This document shows, piece after piece, positions 24,379 through 38,722 of a stretch of 64,000 nt of DNA. The notes under the pieces are model-generated. The model ran no database searches. It was not told where the DNA came from and was given only the letters and a program-made list of their open reading frames with translations. Source of the DNA: Pseudovibrio japonicus (GTDB lineage: Bacteria > Pseudomonadota > Alphaproteobacteria > Rhizobiales > Stappiaceae); assembly GCF_014651595.1 (NCBI RefSeq), contig NZ_BMXE01000001.1, positions 248,001 through 312,000 on the forward strand, read 5' to 3'. The position numbers were made by a program, and so were the translations under genes. Every line of letters starts with the position of its first letter. Position 1 is the stretch's first letter.

Positions 24379-27300
24379 TTACTCTGCCGGTGTCTGGCTC
24401 TGGCTCGTGCCCAGCGCATGATCAAGTTCAGAATGAAGCTTGTCTTCAGCGGCCTTACGCGGCTTCGTGTAGCGCATCAGTAGCAGATATGCTGCAGGCG
24501 TCACGAACAGCGTGGAGAGTGTTGCAAAGCCCAGACCGCCAACAATCACCCAGCCCATCTCGATACGCGCTTCAGCACCTGCACCGAAAGCCATGACCAG
24601 CGGAACACCGCCAAGCACCGTGGAGACCACAGTCATGACAACAGGGCGGAAGCGGACGAGGCAGGCATCATGCACAGCCTCAAACACGGTGCGCCCTTCT
24701 TCGCGCAGCGCGTTGGCAAACTCGACGATGAGAATGCCGTTCTTCGCCATCAGCCCGACGAGCAGAATGATCCCAATCTGGGAGTAGATGTTGATCGAAC
24801 CTCCTGTCAGACCAATCGAGATAATCGCCGCTGCAATCCCGAATGGAACTGTGCAGAGAATGACAAGAGCACTCATGAAGCTCTCGAACTGCGCGGAAAG
24901 TACCAGGAAGACGACAAGGATTGCAAAGAGGAAGGTCATGTAGACGTTGGAGGTCGTGCTTTCCAGTACGGCTGCCTCACTCAGCAATGTGACATTGTTT
25001 CCTTCAGGCAGAACCTCCGCGGCCACTTCCCTCATGTCGGAAATTGCCTGACCAAGGTCATAGCCGTCATTGAGAGAGATGGTGACCGGAACGGCCCGCT
25101 GCTGCTCTTCGCGTGTCAGGTTTGGCGCCACGCCTTCTTCCTCGATGGAAACGATGGAAGACATTGGCAGCATGGTGCCGTCACTGGTCTTGAGGAAGAT
25201 GTTTTCCAGATCGCGGGTCGAGCGCATTGGCAGACCGCCCGCTTCCATGACCATTGGAATACCGGTATCCTCAACAAACAGATCAGCAACAGAGGAACCA
25301 TCCAGCAGCATACGCAGGTTGGAGGCGATGCGGTCAGACGACAGACCCAAATCGTTTGCGCGCTCCCGATCGACACTCACTAACAGCTGTGGCTGTGTGG
25401 TCTCATAGGAAACGGATGCGGACCCGACCTGATCGCCATGGCGAGCCTGCATTTCTTCGACGATCCTATCTGCACTTTCAGCCAGCTGGTCGTAGTCGGT
25501 GCCGGTTACCGCGAAGCGCAAACCCTGCCCCGCGCCGCGAATACCAAGTGTATTTGGCTGTCTTACGCGAACTTCAAGACCAGGGATCCGGGAGGCACTG
25601 CGCTGTAATTCACGCACGATCTCCTGCTGAGAGCGATCGCGTTCTGACCAGTCCTTCAGAGACATGACGAGGAAACCACGGTTGACCTGTCCGCCCATAC
25701 CGACGAGGCTCAAAACACTGTGTGCTTCGCCACTATCAACGTATGGCCGAGCCATCGATTCCAGCTCACTTACTTTGCCAGCAGTATATTCCAAGCTCGC
25801 CCCTTGTGGTGTGGAACCGATCATGACGATAGTACCCCGATCCTCGGTTGGAGTAAGCTCCTGCGGCAGGAAGGCATACTGGGAGGCGCCATAGACAACA
25901 AAGAGGGTAGCAACGCCCAACAGAAGCATCGGGCGGCGCAGTGTCCAGTCCAATGCCTGAGAATAGGCGCGTTCGATCGCAGACCCCATTTTGGTAATGG
26001 CAAGCCATGCACGAGAGGGTTTGTGGGTGTCCTCATAGTTCTTAACACGTAGCAGACGTGAGGCCATCATAGGCGCGAGTGTCAGCGCAACAAACGAGGA
26101 CAGCATAACGCAGATTGCAAGCACAAAGCCGAACTCGGAGAACAGCTTGCCCACGCTGCCGGGCAGGAATGAAATTGGGATGAAGACCGCGGCCAGTGTG
26201 GCTGTGGTTGTGATGACGGCGAAGAAGACCTCACGGGTACCCAGGATCGCCGCGGCACGCGGCCCCTGCCCCTTTTGAACGCGCTTGGAGATGTTCTCCA
26301 GCACAACAATAGCGTCATCTACGACCATGCCGGTTGCCAGCAACAAGGCGAGCAATGTCAGCACGTTTGCTGAGAAGCCTGCCAACCAAATCCCAACCAA
26401 TGCGCCGACCAAAGCCACCGGCACGGTCACCGCTGGAATGAGCGTGACACGAATAGACCCGAGAAACAGCAGCATCACGCCGATGACAATGCTGGTGGAG
26501 AGAAAGAGCGAGAACACCACTTCCTCAATCGCACCGCCAATAAAGATAGCGTCATCACTGCTGATATTGATTGCAATATCCGCTGGCAACTGTTCCTGCA
26601 TGCGCTCGATTTCAGCGCGTACTTTGTTTGAGACATCAATCGTATTGGAGTTTGCCGCAAGGATAACACCCATACCAACAGCGCTTTTGCCGTTATAGAA
26701 TGCGCTAGATGACGCGCGTTCCGGGCCGTAGCTTACGAAGGCGACGTCACGAATTCGCGTGGTGTCGTTGAGCTTTACCATGCCGATCTGTTCGGCGGTT
26801 TCCACGTCAGAGTTTGCACGAACAAAAAGCTCCTGAGCGCCGGTTTCCAATGAGCCGCCAGAGGTATCGAGGGCCAATTCTTGTAAAACAGAGCGCAGGT
26901 CGTCAGGGATCAGTCCGCGCGATGACATGGCTGGAACGTCAATGGCAATCCTGAAAACTGGCGTTTGGGAGCCGTACAATTCAACGCTGGCAATGCCGGG
27001 TACGGATGTAATGCGATCAACAATCTCGTCATCAACGTACTTGCTCAACTCTTCGATGCGCAGCTCATCGGAGGTCACCACAAGCCGCATGACCGGGTCA
27101 GCATCTGCATCAGCCTTCACGACCATAGGCGTGTCGACGTCTTCAGGAAGGAATTCTACTGCTCCGCCGACAGCATCACGAATGTCATTGGCCGCTTCAC
27201 TCACGTCCACACTGTCATCAAACTCAACAGTAATGCGGCTGTTGCCGTATTTGGAGGAGGATGAGATGGATTCAATGCCGGATGTGCGGGAGATTGCCTT

Positions 27301-27543
27301 TTCCAGCACACTCGTCAGTTCAGCATCTGTTACTTCCGGTGGTGCACCAGAATATGTGGTTGTCACAGTTACGACAGGTCGGTCAACGTTGGGCATTTCG
27401 CGCACTTCAACGCCAAGCATCGCTGCGATACCTGCAACAATAATGAGAAGGTTGAGGGTGATCGCCAGCACCGGACGGCGCACGCAAAGCGCATAAAGTC
27501 CGCTTAAGTGACTTTCCCGCTCAGAGTTTTTATCGTCTTTCAT
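24379..27543 (-). CDS. RND multidrug efflux permease (HAE1/AcrB type)
   Basis: Inner-membrane proton-driven pump subunit of a tripartite exporter. 1054 residues, standard size, with 12 membrane segments in the 1+5+1+5 layout and two large periplasmic loops. The proton-relay acids are present as GMVVDDAIVVLEN (D409, D410) and the TM10 Lys in GLMAKNGILIVEF (K934), so it should be active. Ribosome site AAAGGTG before the ATG. Transcribed with the adaptor gene 23 bp upstream; no outer-membrane channel gene is in the window, so it must use one encoded elsewhere. Confidence 0.95.
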   Translation of the reverse strand: MKDDKNSERESHLSGLYALCVRRPVLAITLNLLIIVAGIAAMLGVEVREMPNVDRPVVTVTTTYSGAPPEVTDAELTSVLEKAISRTSGIESISSSSKYGNSRITVEFDDSVDVSEAANDIRDAVGGAVEFLPEDVDTPMVVKADADADPVMRLVVTSDELRIEELSKYVDDEIVDRITSVPGIASVELYGSQTPVFRIAIDVPAMSSRGLIPDDLRSVLQELALDTSGGSLETGAQELFVRANSDVETAEQIGMVKLNDTTRIRDVAFVSYGPERASSSAFYNGKSAVGMGVILAANSNTIDVSNKVRAEIERMQEQLPADIAINISSDDAIFIGGAIEEVVFSLFLSTSIVIGVMLLFLGSIRVTLIPAVTVPVALVGALVGIWLAGFSANVLTLLALLLATGMVVDDAIVVLENISKRVQKGQGPRAAAILGTREVFFAVITTTATLAAVFIPISFLPGSVGKLFSEFGFVLAICVMLSSFVALTLAPMMASRLLRVKNYEDTHKPSRAWLAITKMGSAIERAYSQALDWTLRRPMLLLGVATLFVVYGASQYAFLPQELTPTEDRGTIVMIGSTPQGASLEYTAGKVSELESMARPYVDSGEAHSVLSLVGMGGQVNRGFLVMSLKDWSERDRSQQEIVRELQRSASRIPGLEVRVRQPNTLGIRGAGQGLRFAVTGTDYDQLAESADRIVEEMQARHGDQVGSASVSYETTQPQLLVSVDRERANDLGLSSDRIASNLRMLLDGSSVADLFVEDTGIPMVMEAGGLPMRSTRDLENIFLKTSDGTMLPMSSIVSIEEEGVAPNLTREEQQRAVPVTISLNDGYDLGQAISDMREVAAEVLPEGNNVTLLSEAAVLESTTSNVYMTFLFAILVVFLVLSAQFESFMSALVILCTVPFGIAAAIISIGLTGGSINIYSQIGIILLVGLMAKNGILIVEFANALREEGRTVFEAVHDACLVRFRPVVMTVVSTVLGGVPLVMAFGAGAEARIEMGWVIVGGLGFATLSTLFVTPAAYLLLMRYTKPRKAAEDKLHSELDHALGTSQSQTPAE

Positions 27544-31662: not shown

Positions 31663-32211
31663 ATGAGCACACGAAAATTTTGTCTTGCCATTTTATCCAG
31701 CGGAGACGCAACCGGATACGAAATTCGCAAGGCCGCACAAGAAGGGCAGTTTAGCCATTTCATTGAAGCAAGTTACGGGTCGATTTATCCGTCCCTTGCC
31801 AAGATGGAACAAGAAGGTCTTGTGACGTGGCGCGAAGAGCTTTCCTCAGGCAAACCTTCCCGAAAGATCTACTCCATTACGCAGCTGGGCCGCGATGCTT
31901 TTTTAAAAGAGCTTTTCGAAACCCCGGTGGAAGACCTGTTCAGGTCCCCTTTCCTCCTACTTGCTCTTTACTGCCGGTGGGTTGGTCCTGAGTTCATCTC
32001 TAAGGAGATTGACCGGCGTATGGAAAATCTGGAGCTCAAGATTGCGGACATGAAGCATGAGCTTGAGATTAACGAAGACCCTGCAAGCGCCTGGACATTG
32101 GAATACGGAATTACGGCGTACAGCGCCTCCCTCAATTATTTAAAAATGAACCGAAGCAAACTTGAGCGTATCGCCAGCGAGCCTGTCTCCCACGCTCAAG
32201 CAGCTGAATAA
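31663..32211 (+). CDS. PadR-family transcriptional regulator
   Basis: 182 residues, class I PadR length. The winged helix spans about 1-85: CLAILSSGDATGYEIRK, YGSIYPSLAKMEQEGLV (recognition helix) and the wing LSSGKPSRKIYSITQLGRDAF. A C-terminal dimerisation helix bundle follows. Such proteins repress efflux operons and lift off on drug binding. GTGAGGA is an ideal ribosome site before the ATG. The adaptor gene starts 26 bp after its stop, so regulator and pump probably share a transcript under the dyad upstream. Confidence 0.92.
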   Translation: MSTRKFCLAILSSGDATGYEIRKAAQEGQFSHFIEASYGSIYPSLAKMEQEGLVTWREELSSGKPSRKIYSITQLGRDAFLKELFETPVEDLFRSPFLLLALYCRWVGPEFISKEIDRRMENLELKIADMKHELEINEDPASAWTLEYGITAYSASLNYLKMNRSKLERIASEPVSHAQAAE

Positions 32212-32236: not shown

Positions 32237-33340
32237 ATGGCAATTCGATTTTCACATATTCTGGCTTTGGGGCTTACTGCCGGAATCGGTATTTGGATGG
32301 CGACCGGCACCAGCGTTGTTATGGGTCAGGGTACGAGCGAGGATTCTCCTCCACCACCGGCTGATAGGGTTAAAGCTCTGGGCGATGTTCCATTTGCCGT
32401 AAAAGTGGAGACACTTACAGCAACCGAGCGTACTCCTTATTTGGAAATGCGCGGACGGACGCAGGCTGCAACCCGCATTGAGGTGCATGCAGAAACGGCT
32501 GGGGTGGTTCGCGCACGCCCGACAAGCGAAGGCATGTTTGTGCGCAAGGGCGACCTACTCTGCTCGCTTGACCGCGGGGCCCGCGAAGCACGGGTTCTTC
32601 AGGCAAACGCATTGCTGGCACAGGCTAATATTGATTTTGAAGCAGCTGGAAAGCTGAAGGACCGCGGTTTTTCTGCCGCAAACCGTGTGATTGCCCTTAA
32701 GGCCACGCGTGATGCAGCCAGTGCTCAGCTTCAGGAAGCTGAGCTAGAACTGGAGCGTACGGAAATCCGTGCGCCCATTGACGGCATCATCGAAGCGCCT
32801 CTGACAGACGTGGGCGCCATGCTGGGCGTTGGCAAAGTGTGCGCGACCATTATGGCACCGGATCCAATGCTTGCCATTGGTGCGGTTTCTGAATCCAACA
32901 TTCAGGCTGTAAAGGTTGGGCAGAGCGCAGTTGTCAATCTGGTGACCGGCCAGTCGGTTGAAGGAAAAGTCAGCTACATTGCAAGTTCAGCTGATCCGGA
33001 CACACGCACATTCCGCGTGGAAGTGGAGCTGCCGAACCCGAATTTTGACTTGAAAGACGGTGTCACCACCAGCACGCAGCTGCGTCTTGGCAAAGAAAAA
33101 GCGCACTTTGTTTCTCCGGGTATTTTGACCCTGGCGGACAACGGAGACATTGGCCTGCGCGGCGTTGATGCTGACAACAAGGTTGTTTTTTACCCTGTTG
33201 AGATGATTGGCGGGGACACAAAGGGCGTCTGGCTTAAGGGGCTGCCTGAGAAAGTGACCATTATTACCGTTGGTCAGGACTTCGTTAAAGAGGGCCGCGT
33301 CGTTCACCCCGTTTTTGAAACCGCGGAGGTTTCACAATGA
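32237..33340 (+). CDS. RND periplasmic adaptor of the PadR-linked pump
   Basis: 367 residues from the ATG at 32237 (GGAG 6-9 bases upstream; the longer reading from 32162 overlaps padR). Signal/anchor HILALGLTAGIGIWMATG, then the lipoyl half-motifs around AETAGVVRARPTSEGMFVRKGDLLCSLD and IRAPIDGIIEAPLTDVGAMLGVG with a short alpha-hairpin between, and a beta-barrel domain. HlyD/AcrA family. Its stop overlaps the permease start by 4 bp (ATGA), so translation is coupled. Confidence 0.92.
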   Translation: MAIRFSHILALGLTAGIGIWMATGTSVVMGQGTSEDSPPPPADRVKALGDVPFAVKVETLTATERTPYLEMRGRTQAATRIEVHAETAGVVRARPTSEGMFVRKGDLLCSLDRGAREARVLQANALLAQANIDFEAAGKLKDRGFSAANRVIALKATRDAASAQLQEAELELERTEIRAPIDGIIEAPLTDVGAMLGVGKVCATIMAPDPMLAIGAVSESNIQAVKVGQSAVVNLVTGQSVEGKVSYIASSADPDTRTFRVEVELPNPNFDLKDGVTTSTQLRLGKEKAHFVSPGILTLADNGDIGLRGVDADNKVVFYPVEMIGGDTKGVWLKGLPEKVTIITVGQDFVKEGRVVHPVFETAEVSQ

Positions 33341-36300
33341 TTTCCATGCTGGAAGGGGTGCTCCATCGCCCCAAAACAGTTTTTGTGATGATGCTGTTCA
33401 TGGTGATTGCAGGGATTATGTCCTACATCGCAATCCCCAAGGAAGCGGCTCCTGATATTGATGTTCCATTCTTTTATGTCTCTGTCGGCCAGTCCGGTAT
33501 TTCTCCTGAGGACGGGGCGCGGCTGATCGGGCAACCCATGGAGACCGAACTGCGCGGTCTTGAGGGACTGAAGGAGATCACCACGATTGCCGCAGAAGGT
33601 CATGTGGGGATCCTGCTCGAGTTCGACATCGGCGTCGATAAAGACAAAGCTCTGGTTGATGTTCGTGAAAAAGTGGATACGGCAAAAAGCAAGATCCCGG
33701 CGGACGCCAACGAGCCGACTGTCAGCACGCACAATATGGCTTTACAGCCGACAATGACCATCGCCCTTTCCGGTGATGTGCCAGCACGCACGCTGTACCG
33801 TATTGCGGATCGCCTGAAAGACGAGATCGAATCCATTGCCTCGGTCAAAGAGGTTGAACTTACTGGTCAGCGCGATGAACAGCTGGAAGTGATCATCGAT
33901 ACGCTCAAGATGGAAAGCTATTCCATTAGTCAAAATGAGCTGATCAATGCGCTTCAGATGAACAACCAGCTGATTGCTGCGGGTTTCATTGACGGCGGTG
34001 CTGGGCGTTTTAACATCAAGGTTCCGGGCCTGATCCTTGATGCAGATGACGTTTATTCACTGCCGGTGAAACAATCGGGTGAAGGCGTCGTCACTCTTGG
34101 CGATATTGCCTCAATCAAGCGCACCTTCAAGGATGCAAGCACCTTTACACTGGTGAATGGTCAGCCTGCTGTTTCTCTGGATGTGGTCAAGCGTATTGGC
34201 GAGAACATCATTGAGAACAACGCAGCTGTGCGCGCGGTTGTTGCGGAGGTTACCAAGGATCTGCCGCCAACGGTGACCATCAGCTATATGCTGGATGTGT
34301 CGGATAATATCTTCAAGGTTCTGAGTTCGCTTGAATCGTCCATCATGACAGCGATCTTCCTCGTGATGATCGTTGTGGTGGCAGCGCTTGGGCTGCGCTC
34401 AGCTGTTCTTGTTGGTCTTGCTATCCCAACCAGCTTTATGCTGGGCTTCCTGACGCTGACAACAATTGGCATGACCGTGAACAACATGGTGATGTTTGGC
34501 CTTGTGCTGACGGTTGGTATGCTGGTTGACGGTGCCATCGTGATGGTGGAGTACGCGGACCGCAAGGCGGCTGAAGGCATGCCACCGCGGGATGCTTACA
34601 TCCGCGCCGCCAAGCTGATGTTCTGGCCGATTGTCTCGTCAACCGCCACAACACTGGCAGCCTTCCTGCCCATGTTACTGTGGCCGGGTGTGATCGGCGA
34701 GTTCATGAGTTATCTGCCGATCATGGTGATCATCGTTCTGTCCGGCTCCTTGCTGACGGCAATGGTGTTCCTACCGGTAACCGGCGGCATTCTGGCCTCT
34801 GTATTTGCCTTCATCGGCAAGTATGGTGAGTACATCCTGAGCGGCCTTGTCGCTCTGATCAGTGCCATAATCGTGGTAACATTGCCGCCCGTTAGGTCTG
34901 TTTGGGGCGGGATGCATTTGCTGCTCATGATCCCGACCATACTTGTCATTGGTGTACCAATCTTCGTTGCGGTATTCCTACCAGCTCTCAAGCTATTCAA
35001 ACCCGTCCTCAAGTATTCCCGTGCCCGTGTTGAGCGTCGCAAAACAGCAGAGCTGGAAGCAGCAAAGGTCTTTTCCGGGCATGGTCCGTTTGACACCTCA
35101 AAGCTGCGGGGCATTACACGGGTTTACATCGGTGTACTGGAGGTACTGGTTCGCAAGTGGTGGGCGGGTGTTGCTGCCATGGTTACTCTGCTTACCATTT
35201 GCGCGGTTATCGTCGTAACCTTCATGAGCAACAACGCAGGAACCGAGCTTTTCGTTGACGAGGAGCCGGAGCAAGGTCGCTTTTATGTGACGGCTCGCGG
35301 CAACATGTCGGCTACTGAGGCTCTTGCGCTTGTTACTCAGGTAGACAAGGTCATTCTGGCGGAACCGGGCGTCAAAAATGTTGTAACGAGAGCCTTCCCC
35401 GTTGGTATTCGCGGTGGCGGTGGCAACAACGCGCCTGCTGACCTGATCGGGTCTATCGACATTGAGTTTGTTGACTTCTGTTGCCGTAGTTCAGCACGGG
35501 AAATCTTCAACAGCATTCGCGAGAAGACCTCCCTGCTTCCAGGCATCAAAGTCGAAGCCCGAAAGGTGGAAGGTGGCCCGCCAACTGGTAAAGACATCCA
35601 GCTGCAGATTACCTCAAACGATTATGATGCAGCTGTTGCAGCCGCTGGCCGCATTCGCACCTACCTCGATACTGTTGACGGGTTGCGCGATCAGGAAGAC
35701 AGCCGTCCGCTGCCCGGCATTGACTGGGAGCTGACCATCAACCGCGATAAGGCAGCGCGTTACAAAGCCGATATTGCAGCCGTTGGTGCTATGGTTCAGT
35801 TGGTGACCAATGGTGTGTTGATTGGTGACTACCGCCCGTCGGATTCCGAGGATGAAGTGGATATCAGAGTTCGTCTTCCTGAGGGGGAGCGCACGCTGGA
35901 TAAGTTCGATGAGCTGCGTCTTCGTACTCCGCTTGGTCAGATCCCGCTTTCAAACTTTGTGGAGCGGACACCAAAGCAAAAAGTTTCCTCCATGACACGC
36001 CGGAACGGTCTGTTCTCGATTGATATCAAGGCGGGCGTCAACAAAGACAAGTATCTGATCACGGAGAAGGAAACTGAGATTCAGGAATGGCTTGACTCTC
36101 AGACATGGCCTGAAGGTGTATTTTACAAGTTCCGCGGTTCCAACGAGGAGCAGCAGAATACACAGTCCTTCCTTGGCAAGGCGATGATTGGTGCCCTCTT
36201 CCTGATGTTCATCATTCTGCTGACCCAGTTCAACAGCTTCTATCAGACCTTCCTGACGCTCTCGACCGTGGTTATGAGTATGTTTGGCGTGGTGCTGGGA

Positions 36301-36840
36301 ATGTTGGTCACCGGGCAGAAGTTCTCGGTCATCATGACTGGCACGGGCATTGTGGCGCTGGCGGGTATCGTGGTGAACAACGCGATTGTACTCATCGATA
36401 CTTACAATCGCTTCCGTGAAGATGGCCAGAGCCCGGTAGATGCGGCGCTACGCACCAGTGCACAGCGTGTGCGTCCGGTGATGCTGACCACCATCACAAC
36501 GATTGCTGGCCTCATTCCAATGGCGACACAGATCAGCTTCGACTTTGCCAATCAGGTCACCACCTTTGGCAGTGTCACTGGAAGCTGGTGGGTGCAGCTC
36601 TCTACTGCTGTGATATCCGGTCTGGCATTTTCGACCATGCTGACGCTGGTTATGATCCCGATTGCTCTGGTGTTGCCAATGCATATCAGGAATGGCTGGG
36701 GTTACTTCAGAGATCGCGGTCAGGTTGGAATGCCCGCAGGCCAGTATGCTGTTGCAAACGGTGGTCTGGGTCTGCAAGAGCCAAGCTTTGGCGATGCCAA
36801 AGCGGACGAAGGCAAGCGTGTTCCTGAAGCTGCCGAGTAA
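33337..36840 (+). CDS. RND efflux permease, enlarged, with altered proton-relay residues
   Basis: Inner-membrane pump subunit, 1167 residues, some 120 longer than AcrB. The two-fold RND layout is clear (TM1, large periplasmic loop, TM2-6, TM7, second loop, TM8-12). Between TM6 and TM7 there are two additional hydrophobic stretches at about 497-517 and 526-551, followed by a charged linker (RARVERRKTAELEAAK). In TM4 the usual Asp-Asp is VDGAIV (D398, G399), and the TM10 Lys position is Asn (N1014 in VVNNAIVLID), so proton coupling differs from AcrB. Substrate unknown. Last gene of the padR operon, followed by a strong terminator. Confidence 0.92.
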   Translation: MISMLEGVLHRPKTVFVMMLFMVIAGIMSYIAIPKEAAPDIDVPFFYVSVGQSGISPEDGARLIGQPMETELRGLEGLKEITTIAAEGHVGILLEFDIGVDKDKALVDVREKVDTAKSKIPADANEPTVSTHNMALQPTMTIALSGDVPARTLYRIADRLKDEIESIASVKEVELTGQRDEQLEVIIDTLKMESYSISQNELINALQMNNQLIAAGFIDGGAGRFNIKVPGLILDADDVYSLPVKQSGEGVVTLGDIASIKRTFKDASTFTLVNGQPAVSLDVVKRIGENIIENNAAVRAVVAEVTKDLPPTVTISYMLDVSDNIFKVLSSLESSIMTAIFLVMIVVVAALGLRSAVLVGLAIPTSFMLGFLTLTTIGMTVNNMVMFGLVLTVGMLVDGAIVMVEYADRKAAEGMPPRDAYIRAAKLMFWPIVSSTATTLAAFLPMLLWPGVIGEFMSYLPIMVIIVLSGSLLTAMVFLPVTGGILASVFAFIGKYGEYILSGLVALISAIIVVTLPPVRSVWGGMHLLLMIPTILVIGVPIFVAVFLPALKLFKPVLKYSRARVERRKTAELEAAKVFSGHGPFDTSKLRGITRVYIGVLEVLVRKWWAGVAAMVTLLTICAVIVVTFMSNNAGTELFVDEEPEQGRFYVTARGNMSATEALALVTQVDKVILAEPGVKNVVTRAFPVGIRGGGGNNAPADLIGSIDIEFVDFCCRSSAREIFNSIREKTSLLPGIKVEARKVEGGPPTGKDIQLQITSNDYDAAVAAAGRIRTYLDTVDGLRDQEDSRPLPGIDWELTINRDKAARYKADIAAVGAMVQLVTNGVLIGDYRPSDSEDEVDIRVRLPEGERTLDKFDELRLRTPLGQIPLSNFVERTPKQKVSSMTRRNGLFSIDIKAGVNKDKYLITEKETEIQEWLDSQTWPEGVFYKFRGSNEEQQNTQSFLGKAMIGALFLMFIILLTQFNSFYQTFLTLSTVVMSMFGVVLGMLVTGQKFSVIMTGTGIVALAGIVVNNAIVLIDTYNRFREDGQSPVDAALRTSAQRVRPVMLTTITTIAGLIPMATQISFDFANQVTTFGSVTGSWWVQLSTAVISGLAFSTMLTLVMIPIALVLPMHIRNGWGYFRDRGQVGMPAGQYAVANGGLGLQEPSFGDAKADEGKRVPEAAE

Positions 36841-37041: not shown

Positions 37042-37989
37042 TTAGTCGCCATCCTTGTCCTTATTCAGTTTTGGATCGGGAACACCAGCTTTTGCGATAT
37101 CTTCGAGGCTGACTTTCAACGAGGCCTTGTCCTCAGAGACACTTTCCTCGTCAATCTCGGTGGTCACCACGTTACAATCTTCGGGGCGTCCTTTGCCGTC
37201 AAGACAATGTTTCTTGTAAGAGCGCCATGCAAACGGGATAGAGGCGAGATAACCGAGACTGATAATGGTCAAACACTCAAACGGATAGCTGGCGCCAAGA
37301 GCGATAATGCCAACGGCGACCACGAACAGCGGCAGGACCCATTCGCGGCGGATGTGGGTGCCGATCTGCTTGCCGGAAAAGGTTGGCAGCTGGCTGACCA
37401 TCAAGAGCCCGATGAACATGGTGTAGAGTGCCACAGGCGCTGCCAGCTCTTCCCAGTGCGGCACACCCAGCCGTTCGAGATAGATTGGCAACAGAACTGT
37501 CAGAGCGCCTGCCGGAGCGGGGACGCCGGTGAAGAATTTACTTACCCACTTCGGCTTATTCGGATCGTCCAGCGCCACGTTAAATCGGGCCAGTCGCAGT
37601 ACCATGCAAATGGTATACAGCAGTGAGGCGATCCACCCCAGAGATCCGGCATCCTGTAGTATCCACGCGTAGAGGATAATGCCCGGTGCAACGCCGAAAT
37701 TGACAAAGTCGGCCAGCGAATCCAGTTCAGCGCCAAACTTGGAAGTGCCTTTGAGCATGCGCGCGACACGACCATCCAGAGCATCGAGAATGGCTGCCAG
37801 GAAGATGGCTGCGATTGCCATGTCCCATCTGGCTTCCATGGCCATGCGAATGGCAGTCAGGCCAGAACACAGCGCCAGCAATGTGACGACGTTTGGCAGA
37901 ACGATACGAAGGGGAATGCGTTTGCGCGCCGCCCCTTTGTCATTGGCGGTTTGACCTCCCGGTTCATAGGGAGGAAATGGATTAGTCAC
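37042..37989 (-). CDS. pssA: CDP-diacylglycerol-serine O-phosphatidyltransferase
   Basis: Makes phosphatidylserine from CDP-diacylglycerol and serine in the inner membrane, the step before psd. 315 residues with about eight membrane segments. The CDP-alcohol phosphotransferase signature DGxxAR-x8-GxxxDxxxD is complete (DGRVAR ... GAELDSLAD, about residues 73-94). A hydrophilic N-terminus and a 45-residue charged C-terminal tail extend beyond the core. Start GTG at 37989 with AAGG upstream, 11 bp after the psd stop; the two form an operon. Confidence 0.95.
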   Translation of the reverse strand: MTNPFPPYEPGGQTANDKGAARKRIPLRIVLPNVVTLLALCSGLTAIRMAMEARWDMAIAAIFLAAILDALDGRVARMLKGTSKFGAELDSLADFVNFGVAPGIILYAWILQDAGSLGWIASLLYTICMVLRLARFNVALDDPNKPKWVSKFFTGVPAPAGALTVLLPIYLERLGVPHWEELAAPVALYTMFIGLLMVSQLPTFSGKQIGTHIRREWVLPLFVVAVGIIALGASYPFECLTIISLGYLASIPFAWRSYKKHCLDGKGRPEDCNVVTTEIDEESVSEDKASLKVSLEDIAKAGVPDPKLNKDKDGD

Positions 37990-38000
37990 TCTATACTACC

Positions 38001-38702
38001 TTAAGAAACGCGGGCAACCAGGTCGCCTGCTTCTTGATCTTTTAGATTTGCCAGAACACTTTCGCCTGCAATCATGGTCTGGCCCAACGCTACTTGTGGC
38101 TTGGTACCATGCGGCAGGTAGACGTCAAGACGAGATCCGAAGCGGATCAGACCGAAGCGATCACCTACCGAAATATTTTCGCCTTCTTTGACGAAGCACA
38201 CAATACGGCGTGCTACGAGGCCAGCGATTTGTACAACGCCGATACGCGCGTTGTCGTTTTCGATGATCAATCCGTTGCGCTCGTTGTCCTCACTTGCCTT
38301 GTCCAGCTCCGCATTGACAAATTTTCCGGCCTTGTAGGCAACGCGTGTGACGCGGCCAGTCATTGGCGCACGGTTTACGTGGCAATTAAAGACGCTCAGG
38401 AAGATACCAACACGCATCATAGGCTGATCGCCCAGATCCAGTTCACGCGGCGGTACAACGGAGCCCATCTGGCAAATGGTGCCATCTGCCGGAGAGACAA
38501 TCAGTCCATCTTTAACAGGAGTTACGCGTGGCGGATCGCGGAAGAAGTAACAGACCCATCCGGTGAGAAAGAGGCCGATCCAGAAGAGCACAGACCAAAA
38601 CCATCCCAGAATAATAGTCGTGACTGCTGCAATGGCAATAAAAGGGTAGCCTTCTTTATGAATAGGAACCAGTGCCTTGGAAATGCTGTCCGCCAAAGAC
38701 AT
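38001..38702 (-). CDS. psd: Phosphatidylserine decarboxylase, short proenzyme type
   Basis: Decarboxylates phosphatidylserine to phosphatidylethanolamine at the inner membrane. 233 residues from the ATG at 38702, which has AAAGGTGG 5 bases upstream; a GTG three codons earlier would overlap that site. N-terminal hydrophobic anchor ([20 protein letters not shown]), then FFRDPPR and SPADGTI (family markers), [13 protein letters not shown], and the self-cleavage Gly-Ser in [11 protein letters not shown] that yields the pyruvoyl group. Followed directly by pssA, so both PE-synthesis steps are coexpressed. Confidence 0.95.
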
Positions 38703-38722
38703 AATTACCACCTTTGCTAGAG

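Follow-up and report, generated by a model that had tools for sequence, protein, structure and literature searches.

The question raised by this locus is whether an RND permease of Pseudovibrio japonicus has more membrane segments than the textbook member of its family. A sequence-only reading of the window (the whole stretch of 64,000 nucleotides analysed, contig NZ_BMXE01000001.1, positions 248,001 to 312,000) had described a PadR-linked permease of 1167 residues, longer than AcrB, with two extra hydrophobic stretches before TM7. It had proposed 14 membrane segments and asked whether the insert marks a clade. Here, the insert is compared with AcrB and relatives, its likely topology and history are considered, and possible roles are weighed.

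The permease gene and its insert

The features needed below, in window coordinates and permease residue numbers, are as follows.

31663..32211, + strand: PadR-family regulator gene, the first gene of the presumed operon (PF03551, 60.1 bits against a cut-off of 27)
32237..33340, + strand: gene for the periplasmic adaptor (membrane fusion protein; TIGR01730, 145 bits, cut-off 94.9)
33337..36840, + strand: RND permease gene with the extra hairpin (ORF of 1167 aa)
34702..34776, + strand: TM6, residues 456-480, closing the N-terminal half (insertion scale, at 456-478, and AcrB alignment)
34798..35046, + strand: the extra insert, residues about 488-570 (absent from AcrB, seven paralogues of the genome and insert-less relatives)
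34822..34884, + strand: first extra hydrophobic segment, residues 496-516 (hydropathy, insertion scale)
34918..34986, + strand: second extra hydrophobic segment, residues 528-550 (hydropathy, insertion scale)
34999..35106, + strand: basic stretch 3' of the hairpin, residues 555-590, presumably cytoplasmic (57 family sequences, charge counts)
35113..35154, + strand: alpha6-7 helix, residues 593-606, with Y597 at the place of AcrB Y527 (AcrB alignment, AlphaFold2)
35158..35229, + strand: TM7, residues 608-631, opening the C-terminal half (insertion scale, AlphaFold2)

The adaptor start is the ATG at 32237 chosen here; the ORF list gives a TTG at 32162, and the profile search was run from the latter. 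Convergent to the pump lie pssA and psd (37042-38711, - strand), both above an NCBIfam cut-off, followed by a gene whose best match, below the cut-off, is an MsbA-like ABC exporter. The order pump-pssA-psd is also found in deep relatives, including L054, L067, L076, L092, L106, L115 and L125, and a link of the pump to lipids through these neighbours is possible. A second RND permease gene, of ordinary length and lacking the insert, is situated at 24478-27495 (- strand).

The protein belongs to the AcrB/AcrD/AcrF family of RND permeases (PF00873, ACR_tran), as judged by the profile in both halves and by the predicted fold. PF00873 scores 532.5 bits (cut-off 28) in two stretches with a break near the insert, and in the genome search the two parts score 330.8 and 207.6 bits. 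The structure model matches AdeB with Z 46.6 (990 of 1020 residues aligned, rmsd 3.6) and AcrB with Z 45.7 at 20% identity, and Foldseek gives an E-value of 3.1e-59. Among the named NCBIfam RND subfamilies (RND_permease_1/2, TIGR00914, TIGR00915), none reached its cut-off, the best score being 417.6 bits against 1250. D407, R971, T978 and Y527 of AcrB are matched in the alignment by D398, R1044, T1051 and Y597, and D408 and K940 are replaced by G399 and N1014. D398 and G399 (34528-34533) and N1014 (residues 1014-1015, 36376-36381) hardly vary across 105 rows; where AcrB has the pair D407-D408, a single aspartate (D398) is present in the subfamily.

P480 aligns with AcrB P490 at the end of TM6, and Y597 with AcrB Y527 in alpha6-7 (AcrB sequence from the E. 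coli MG1655 record). These positions are 117 residues apart here versus 37 in AcrB, which gives 80 extra residues with alpha6-7 following them; most of the further length beyond AcrB comes from a C-terminal tail (pLDDT below 50 at 1132-1167). Seven further RND permeases encoded in the genome have linkers no longer than that of AcrB and lack the insert. The possibility that the two stretches are simply the normal TM6 and linker, which the sequence-only reading had allowed, is ruled out by the alignment with AcrB and insert-less relatives, in which they are additional to TM6 and alpha6-7. A frame artefact is also ruled out, the frame being open through the insert in the genome itself and in 64 further genomes of the family. 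Differences from the insert of the nearest relative (WIN-L012) fall almost all at silent sites (dN/dS 0.03); this value, together with the recurrence of two hydrophobic segments in 88 of 90 linkers of the same length, indicates that the insert is not a product of chance. An extra insert with two hydrophobic segments is thus confirmed. The earlier description was borne out in its essentials, with a shift of borders: the interval 34825-35165 that it gave corresponds to residues 497-610, and the insert proper lies at about 34798-35046.

Pfam and NCBIfam scans found no known domain above cut-off in the insert. The best Pfam match was DUF6338 for a Rhodobacteraceae hairpin (E 0.0022, 18.1 bits against 26.5), and the best NCBIfam match was SoxB for the window hairpin (E 0.012, 14.6 bits against 700). 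The AcrZ profile did not match the window hairpin alone, for which the one Pfam match (E 0.58) is to a different family.

Predicted topology

Kyte-Doolittle hydropathy over 19 residues peaks at 499-517 (2.31) and 528-546 (2.75). The hydrophobic moments of the two segments, 0.17 and 0.18, are non-amphipathic and rule out amphipathic surface helices, the other alternative that had been named. On the Hessa/von Heijne insertion scale, residues 496-516 have an energy of 0.72 kcal/mol and residues 528-550 one of -0.27 kcal/mol; the ten ordinary TM helices detected in the permease span -1.99 to 1.44, a range that includes both values. The scale finds 12 segments here, ten of them canonical, and misses TM5 and TM11. 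For the control, AcrB, it detects 11 segments of the 12 TM helices, and all 11 fall on TM positions.

The linker was then surveyed in 174 rows (112 for the window and its relatives, AcrB, the seven paralogues and 54 further family rows). At the looser cut-off, linkers shorter than 60 residues are free of TM segments in 62 of 62 rows and those of 82-125 residues contain two in 88 of 90, the exceptions being L018 and L089, the latter apparently another RND frame of its locus picked wrongly. Linkers of 233-254 residues contain four segments in 17 of 18 rows and five in L146, and four irregular rows with linkers of 136-147 residues have 3, 3, 3 and 2. At the stricter cut-off, 62 of 62, 76 of 90 and 18 of 18 rows are as expected, and 14 of the 90 single-hairpin rows show one segment only. 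For the second half of the permease to keep its orientation, an insertion into the membrane must add an even number of TM segments. Three segments are predicted in L041 (genome G004, linker of 147 residues), as in L090 and L099; the odd count in L041 implies that the second half is flipped unless one segment does not span the membrane.

All 88 of 88 single-hairpin rows have more K and R residues flanking the hairpin than in its loop, the flanks being counted over a greater length. The K+R density points the same way in the two large clades: family rows (n = 58) have on average 0.17 K+R per loop of 11.2 residues versus 6.43 over the 30 residues that follow the hairpin, and for Rhodobacteraceae rows (n = 21) the values are 0.24 per loop of 14.6 residues versus 6.43. 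In two-hairpin rows (n = 17) the stretch between the hairpins holds a mean of 8.24 K+R, and the loops hold 0.29 and 1.0. Two small clades, of 5 and 4 rows, show a weak bias, and the 30 positions following their hairpins contain more acidic than basic residues. Within the basic stretch, P556, S561, R564, A576, S580, F585 and D586 are conserved in the 57 family sequences. The even counts and the charge pattern argue for in-out-in hairpins, that is, for predicted 14-TM and 16-TM forms.

AlphaFold2 gave a model with pLDDT 77.4 from 30 sequences and one with pLDDT 87.9 and pTM 0.83 from 105 sequences; over the insert, the latter predicts one helix at 451-515 and another at 528-580, and block pLDDT there is 77-94. 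Both monomer models join TM6 to the first extra segment in a single unbroken helix, 451-515, neither model reverses direction near 484-497, and a literal reading would have the hairpin run out of the membrane domain. This helix is the main counter-evidence to the predicted re-entry of the chain into the membrane after TM6. It fits a hairpin that prolongs TM6 into the cytoplasm and forms a hydrophobic bundle under the membrane in the trimer, as do the DSSP assignment of the following helix to 528-579/580 in both models and the confidence of the second model. We consider such an arrangement very improbable, however, because the segments are uniformly hydrophobic and non-amphipathic, the loops are poor and the flanks rich in K/R in the two large clades, and the segment counts go in twos; furthermore, AlphaFold2 has no membrane. 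Sequence, charge and comparison all favour membrane-spanning hairpins, and the 14 membrane segments proposed by the sequence-only reading are strongly suggested as a predicted topology. The two additional predicted segments depart from the textbook 12-TM topology, which describes the solved members and is no part of the definition of PF00873.

Distribution, origin and exchange

Among 41 genomes (the genome itself and 40 relatives), 34 match at 1e-60. The match runs in one piece through the insert in 24 of these, G004 has a longer insert, eight genomes from other families lack the insert (with the gene of G033 split over two contigs), and one matches only via a 27% paralogue. When 87 genomes of the family were searched, 85 matched at 1e-120: 65 in one piece through the insert (57 of these copies were read and eight left unread), 18 with a linker of 233-254 residues, G004 with a longer one, and G041 without an insert. 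This insert-less copy (L164) has the same gene order and a frame of 1114 aa. The contig scan named the best 80 of 588 loci, and among these best 80 there are 34 with two segments, 45 with a short linker, and the misread L089. The 34 consist of one Rhodobacteraceae clade of 24 and ten other alphaproteobacterial or unplaced proteobacterial records; no insert was found in records titled gammaproteobacterial among these best 80 of 588 loci. The Rhodobacteraceae loci L078, L119, L128 and L131 sit in an insert-less clade. In many loci with and without the insert, pssA and psd are convergent to the pump (pssA was found in 29 of 116 permease loci, a good number of which are too short to include it), and the shared pssA/psd neighbourhood supports the orthology of pumps with and without the insert.

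Other RND families were surveyed for the insert in 26 genomes of the same class, and a break of PF00873 at profile positions 488/489 was seen only in the window gene and in G124:C1:1146540; this survey was read by eye, and an insert bridged by the profile would escape it. An RND permease of 1154 aa outside the window (G000:C9:109212-112472; L005, L009) has its break at 783/785, and G106, G113 and G116 have one at about the same place. Judged from the profile positions, a separate group of RND permeases thus has its insertion at another site.

On a tree of 109 rows built without the linker columns (L089, L015 and L016 left out), 4 changes are required to account for the rows that have the insert, and at least 3 of them are forced by starred branches. 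A 164-row tree, from which L089, L015, AcrB and the seven paralogues were left out, again needs 4 changes, 3 of them forced, and 2 changes for the two-hairpin state; with 34 chosen rows, 7 changes are needed, or 6 without L164. AU tests on the 34 chosen rows reject a single clade of all insert rows (p 2.6e-84) and one insert clade of the family plus Rhodobacteraceae (p 2.7e-4). They do not reject a clade of the family's insert rows without L164 (p 0.19), so that L164 need not represent a loss. By these trees and tests the insert marks several clades, not the single one about which the earlier reading had asked.

Several independent gains of hairpins would be the likeliest history. When the hairpin profiles of four clades were compared, hhalign gave probabilities of at most 1.35% for all six pairs, whereas the first hairpin of two-hairpin rows matches the hairpin of its own family at 99.57%. 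One ancestral hairpin followed by many losses is unlikely in the light of these values, even if the count of 4 changes cannot separate gain from loss and a fast-diverging hydrophobic sequence may outlive detectable homology. The second hairpin was also considered as a copy of the first, and this was rejected, as it reaches only 1.59% against the family hairpin; a 93% match between both hairpins of two-hairpin rows is an artefact of overlapping slices, with 12 columns of shared flank. Compared with its counterparts in the remaining two-hairpin rows, the second hairpin of L146 shows a weak match (24% across 96 columns).

Comparison of close relatives bears on the exchange of the region. L016 and L041 are 91-100% identical in 25-codon windows outside residues 500-649; over 500-624 identity is 37-68% with pS of 0.80-0.94, versus pS of 0-0.43 elsewhere, and L014 compared with L041 agrees. 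Between L158 and L163, pS is 0.69-0.81 over residues 500-574 versus 0-0.52 elsewhere, with a smaller rise at 650-699. In these two pairs the median synonymous divergence is 0.09 outside the hairpin region and 0.7-0.9 inside it, a pattern which indicates that the hairpin region alone has been replaced by recombination. L152/L154 against L156/L162 give a similar pattern, made less decisive by a raised background. A search for the donor of the L041 segment found none; its best matches came from linkers within the same genus, the nearest nine at 38-44%. In 54 close pairs, picked from their cores with the insert disregarded, synonymous spikes are most frequent at residues 481-600 (up to 16 of 54), counts that serve as a guide because the pairs share species, are not independent, and have an uncertain hairpin alignment. 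A second, lower peak lies at residues 31-150 (window 33427-33786), in up to 10 of 54 pairs.

Possible roles and comparison with known pumps

The locus probably encodes an ordinary RND engine with a peripheral, lipid-facing accessory hairpin of two helices, making 14 TM segments in all. The engine would be a proton-driven, HAE-1-like pump, and the hairpin would be inserted in the linker that joins the halves, following TM6 and preceding alpha6-7. The chain would enter and leave the hairpin on the cytoplasmic side, with the short loop in the periplasm, so that the two halves would keep their orientation. The hairpin may lie at the periphery of the transmembrane domain, facing the lipid and adjoining alpha6-7, and act as a built-in element that stabilises or tunes the membrane domain, not as a proton relay or a passage for substrate.

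The extra segments have no conserved helical face (permutation p 0.61 and 0.75) versus p 0.04 for TM6 and 0.002 for TM7. The lack of a face is compatible with a lipid-facing position, and may partly reflect alignment noise. A proton-relay role was rejected, as no conserved charged residue is present inside the segments (means of 0.6 and 1.26 charged residues per segment, 58 rows). The lack of a conserved face or charge makes it unlikely that the segments relay protons or carry substrate.

The hairpin evolves fast, with a mean entropy of 2.05 and 2.46 bits in the extra segments versus 0.34 in TM6. This low constraint, the replacement of the hairpin between relatives and the insert-less family copy L164 would suit a nearly neutral insertion at a permissive site, having no role and retained since its excision must be exact. 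We find that explanation doubtful: of 85 family genomes, 65 have the insert in one piece, 18 and G004 have a longer linker, and only one is without; the hydrophobic pattern and the basic flank are retained, and insert-bearing rows are spread over several clades. The insert dN/dS of 0.03-0.48 (10 of 13 pairs computable) also speaks against neutrality, though it is mostly above that of the cores.

Alternatively, the hairpin might be a recognition element whose target is a lipid, another membrane protein as partner, or an attacker (a phage or a peptide, for example), with selection diversifying it through exchange. The replacement of the hairpin region alone in L016-L041 and L158-L163 and the peak of synonymous spikes at the hairpin are what this would predict. 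Such recognition is nevertheless unlikely, given the weaker second peak at residues 31-150, the shared species and uncertain hairpin alignment behind the spike counts, a dN/dS below 1, and the fact that no partner gene was found. A wider proposal, which we offer tentatively, is that the junction of the halves could be a modular slot that hairpins enter independently, in one or two copies, and at which cassettes are exchanged under selection for recognition.

For the preferred accessory hairpin, the role may perhaps be like that of AcrZ. AcrZ adds a TM helix in a hydrophobic groove of the AcrB membrane domain, with a proposed allosteric role (PMC13095208). It is a separate, 49-residue, single-helix partner of AcrB and not a hairpin, and is likened to the insert in role, not in descent. 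The AcrZ profile (PF10766) has 0 matches in the P. japonicus genome, and E. coli is the only positive among 14 control genomes.

The RND family itself is well known; a permease of this type carrying an additional hairpin, and likewise the form with two hairpins, are new relative to the open-licence PMC literature searched, in whose titles and abstract openings neither a 14-TM RND permease nor a TM6-TM7 hairpin was recognised. The AcrB/HAE-1 permeases (PF00873) share with the window permease the fold, the matched D407, R971, T978 and Y527 and an adjoining adaptor gene, but have D408 and K940 in place of G399 and N1014 and lack the 80 extra residues with their two segments. The nearest solved sequences by family profile are 6vej (TriC), MdtB and MexK (E 3e-124 to 8.6e-122), with 1022-1040 aa versus 1167 aa here. 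Among 60 of the 83 listed PDB matches, lengths are 1022-1069 aa, which, judged from length alone, suggests that these carry no 80-residue addition.

If the predicted topology is true, tripartite RND pumps can differ in how many TM helices they have. In AcrB, replacement of alpha6-7 by Gly-Ser repeats abolished activity (PMC5546932); a site beside this essential helix would then accept whole membrane hairpins. There would be a natural series of none, one or two hairpins in one orthologous gene, which could be used to test what the membrane periphery contributes to assembly, lipid contact and regulation, the same question that AcrZ raises for AcrB.
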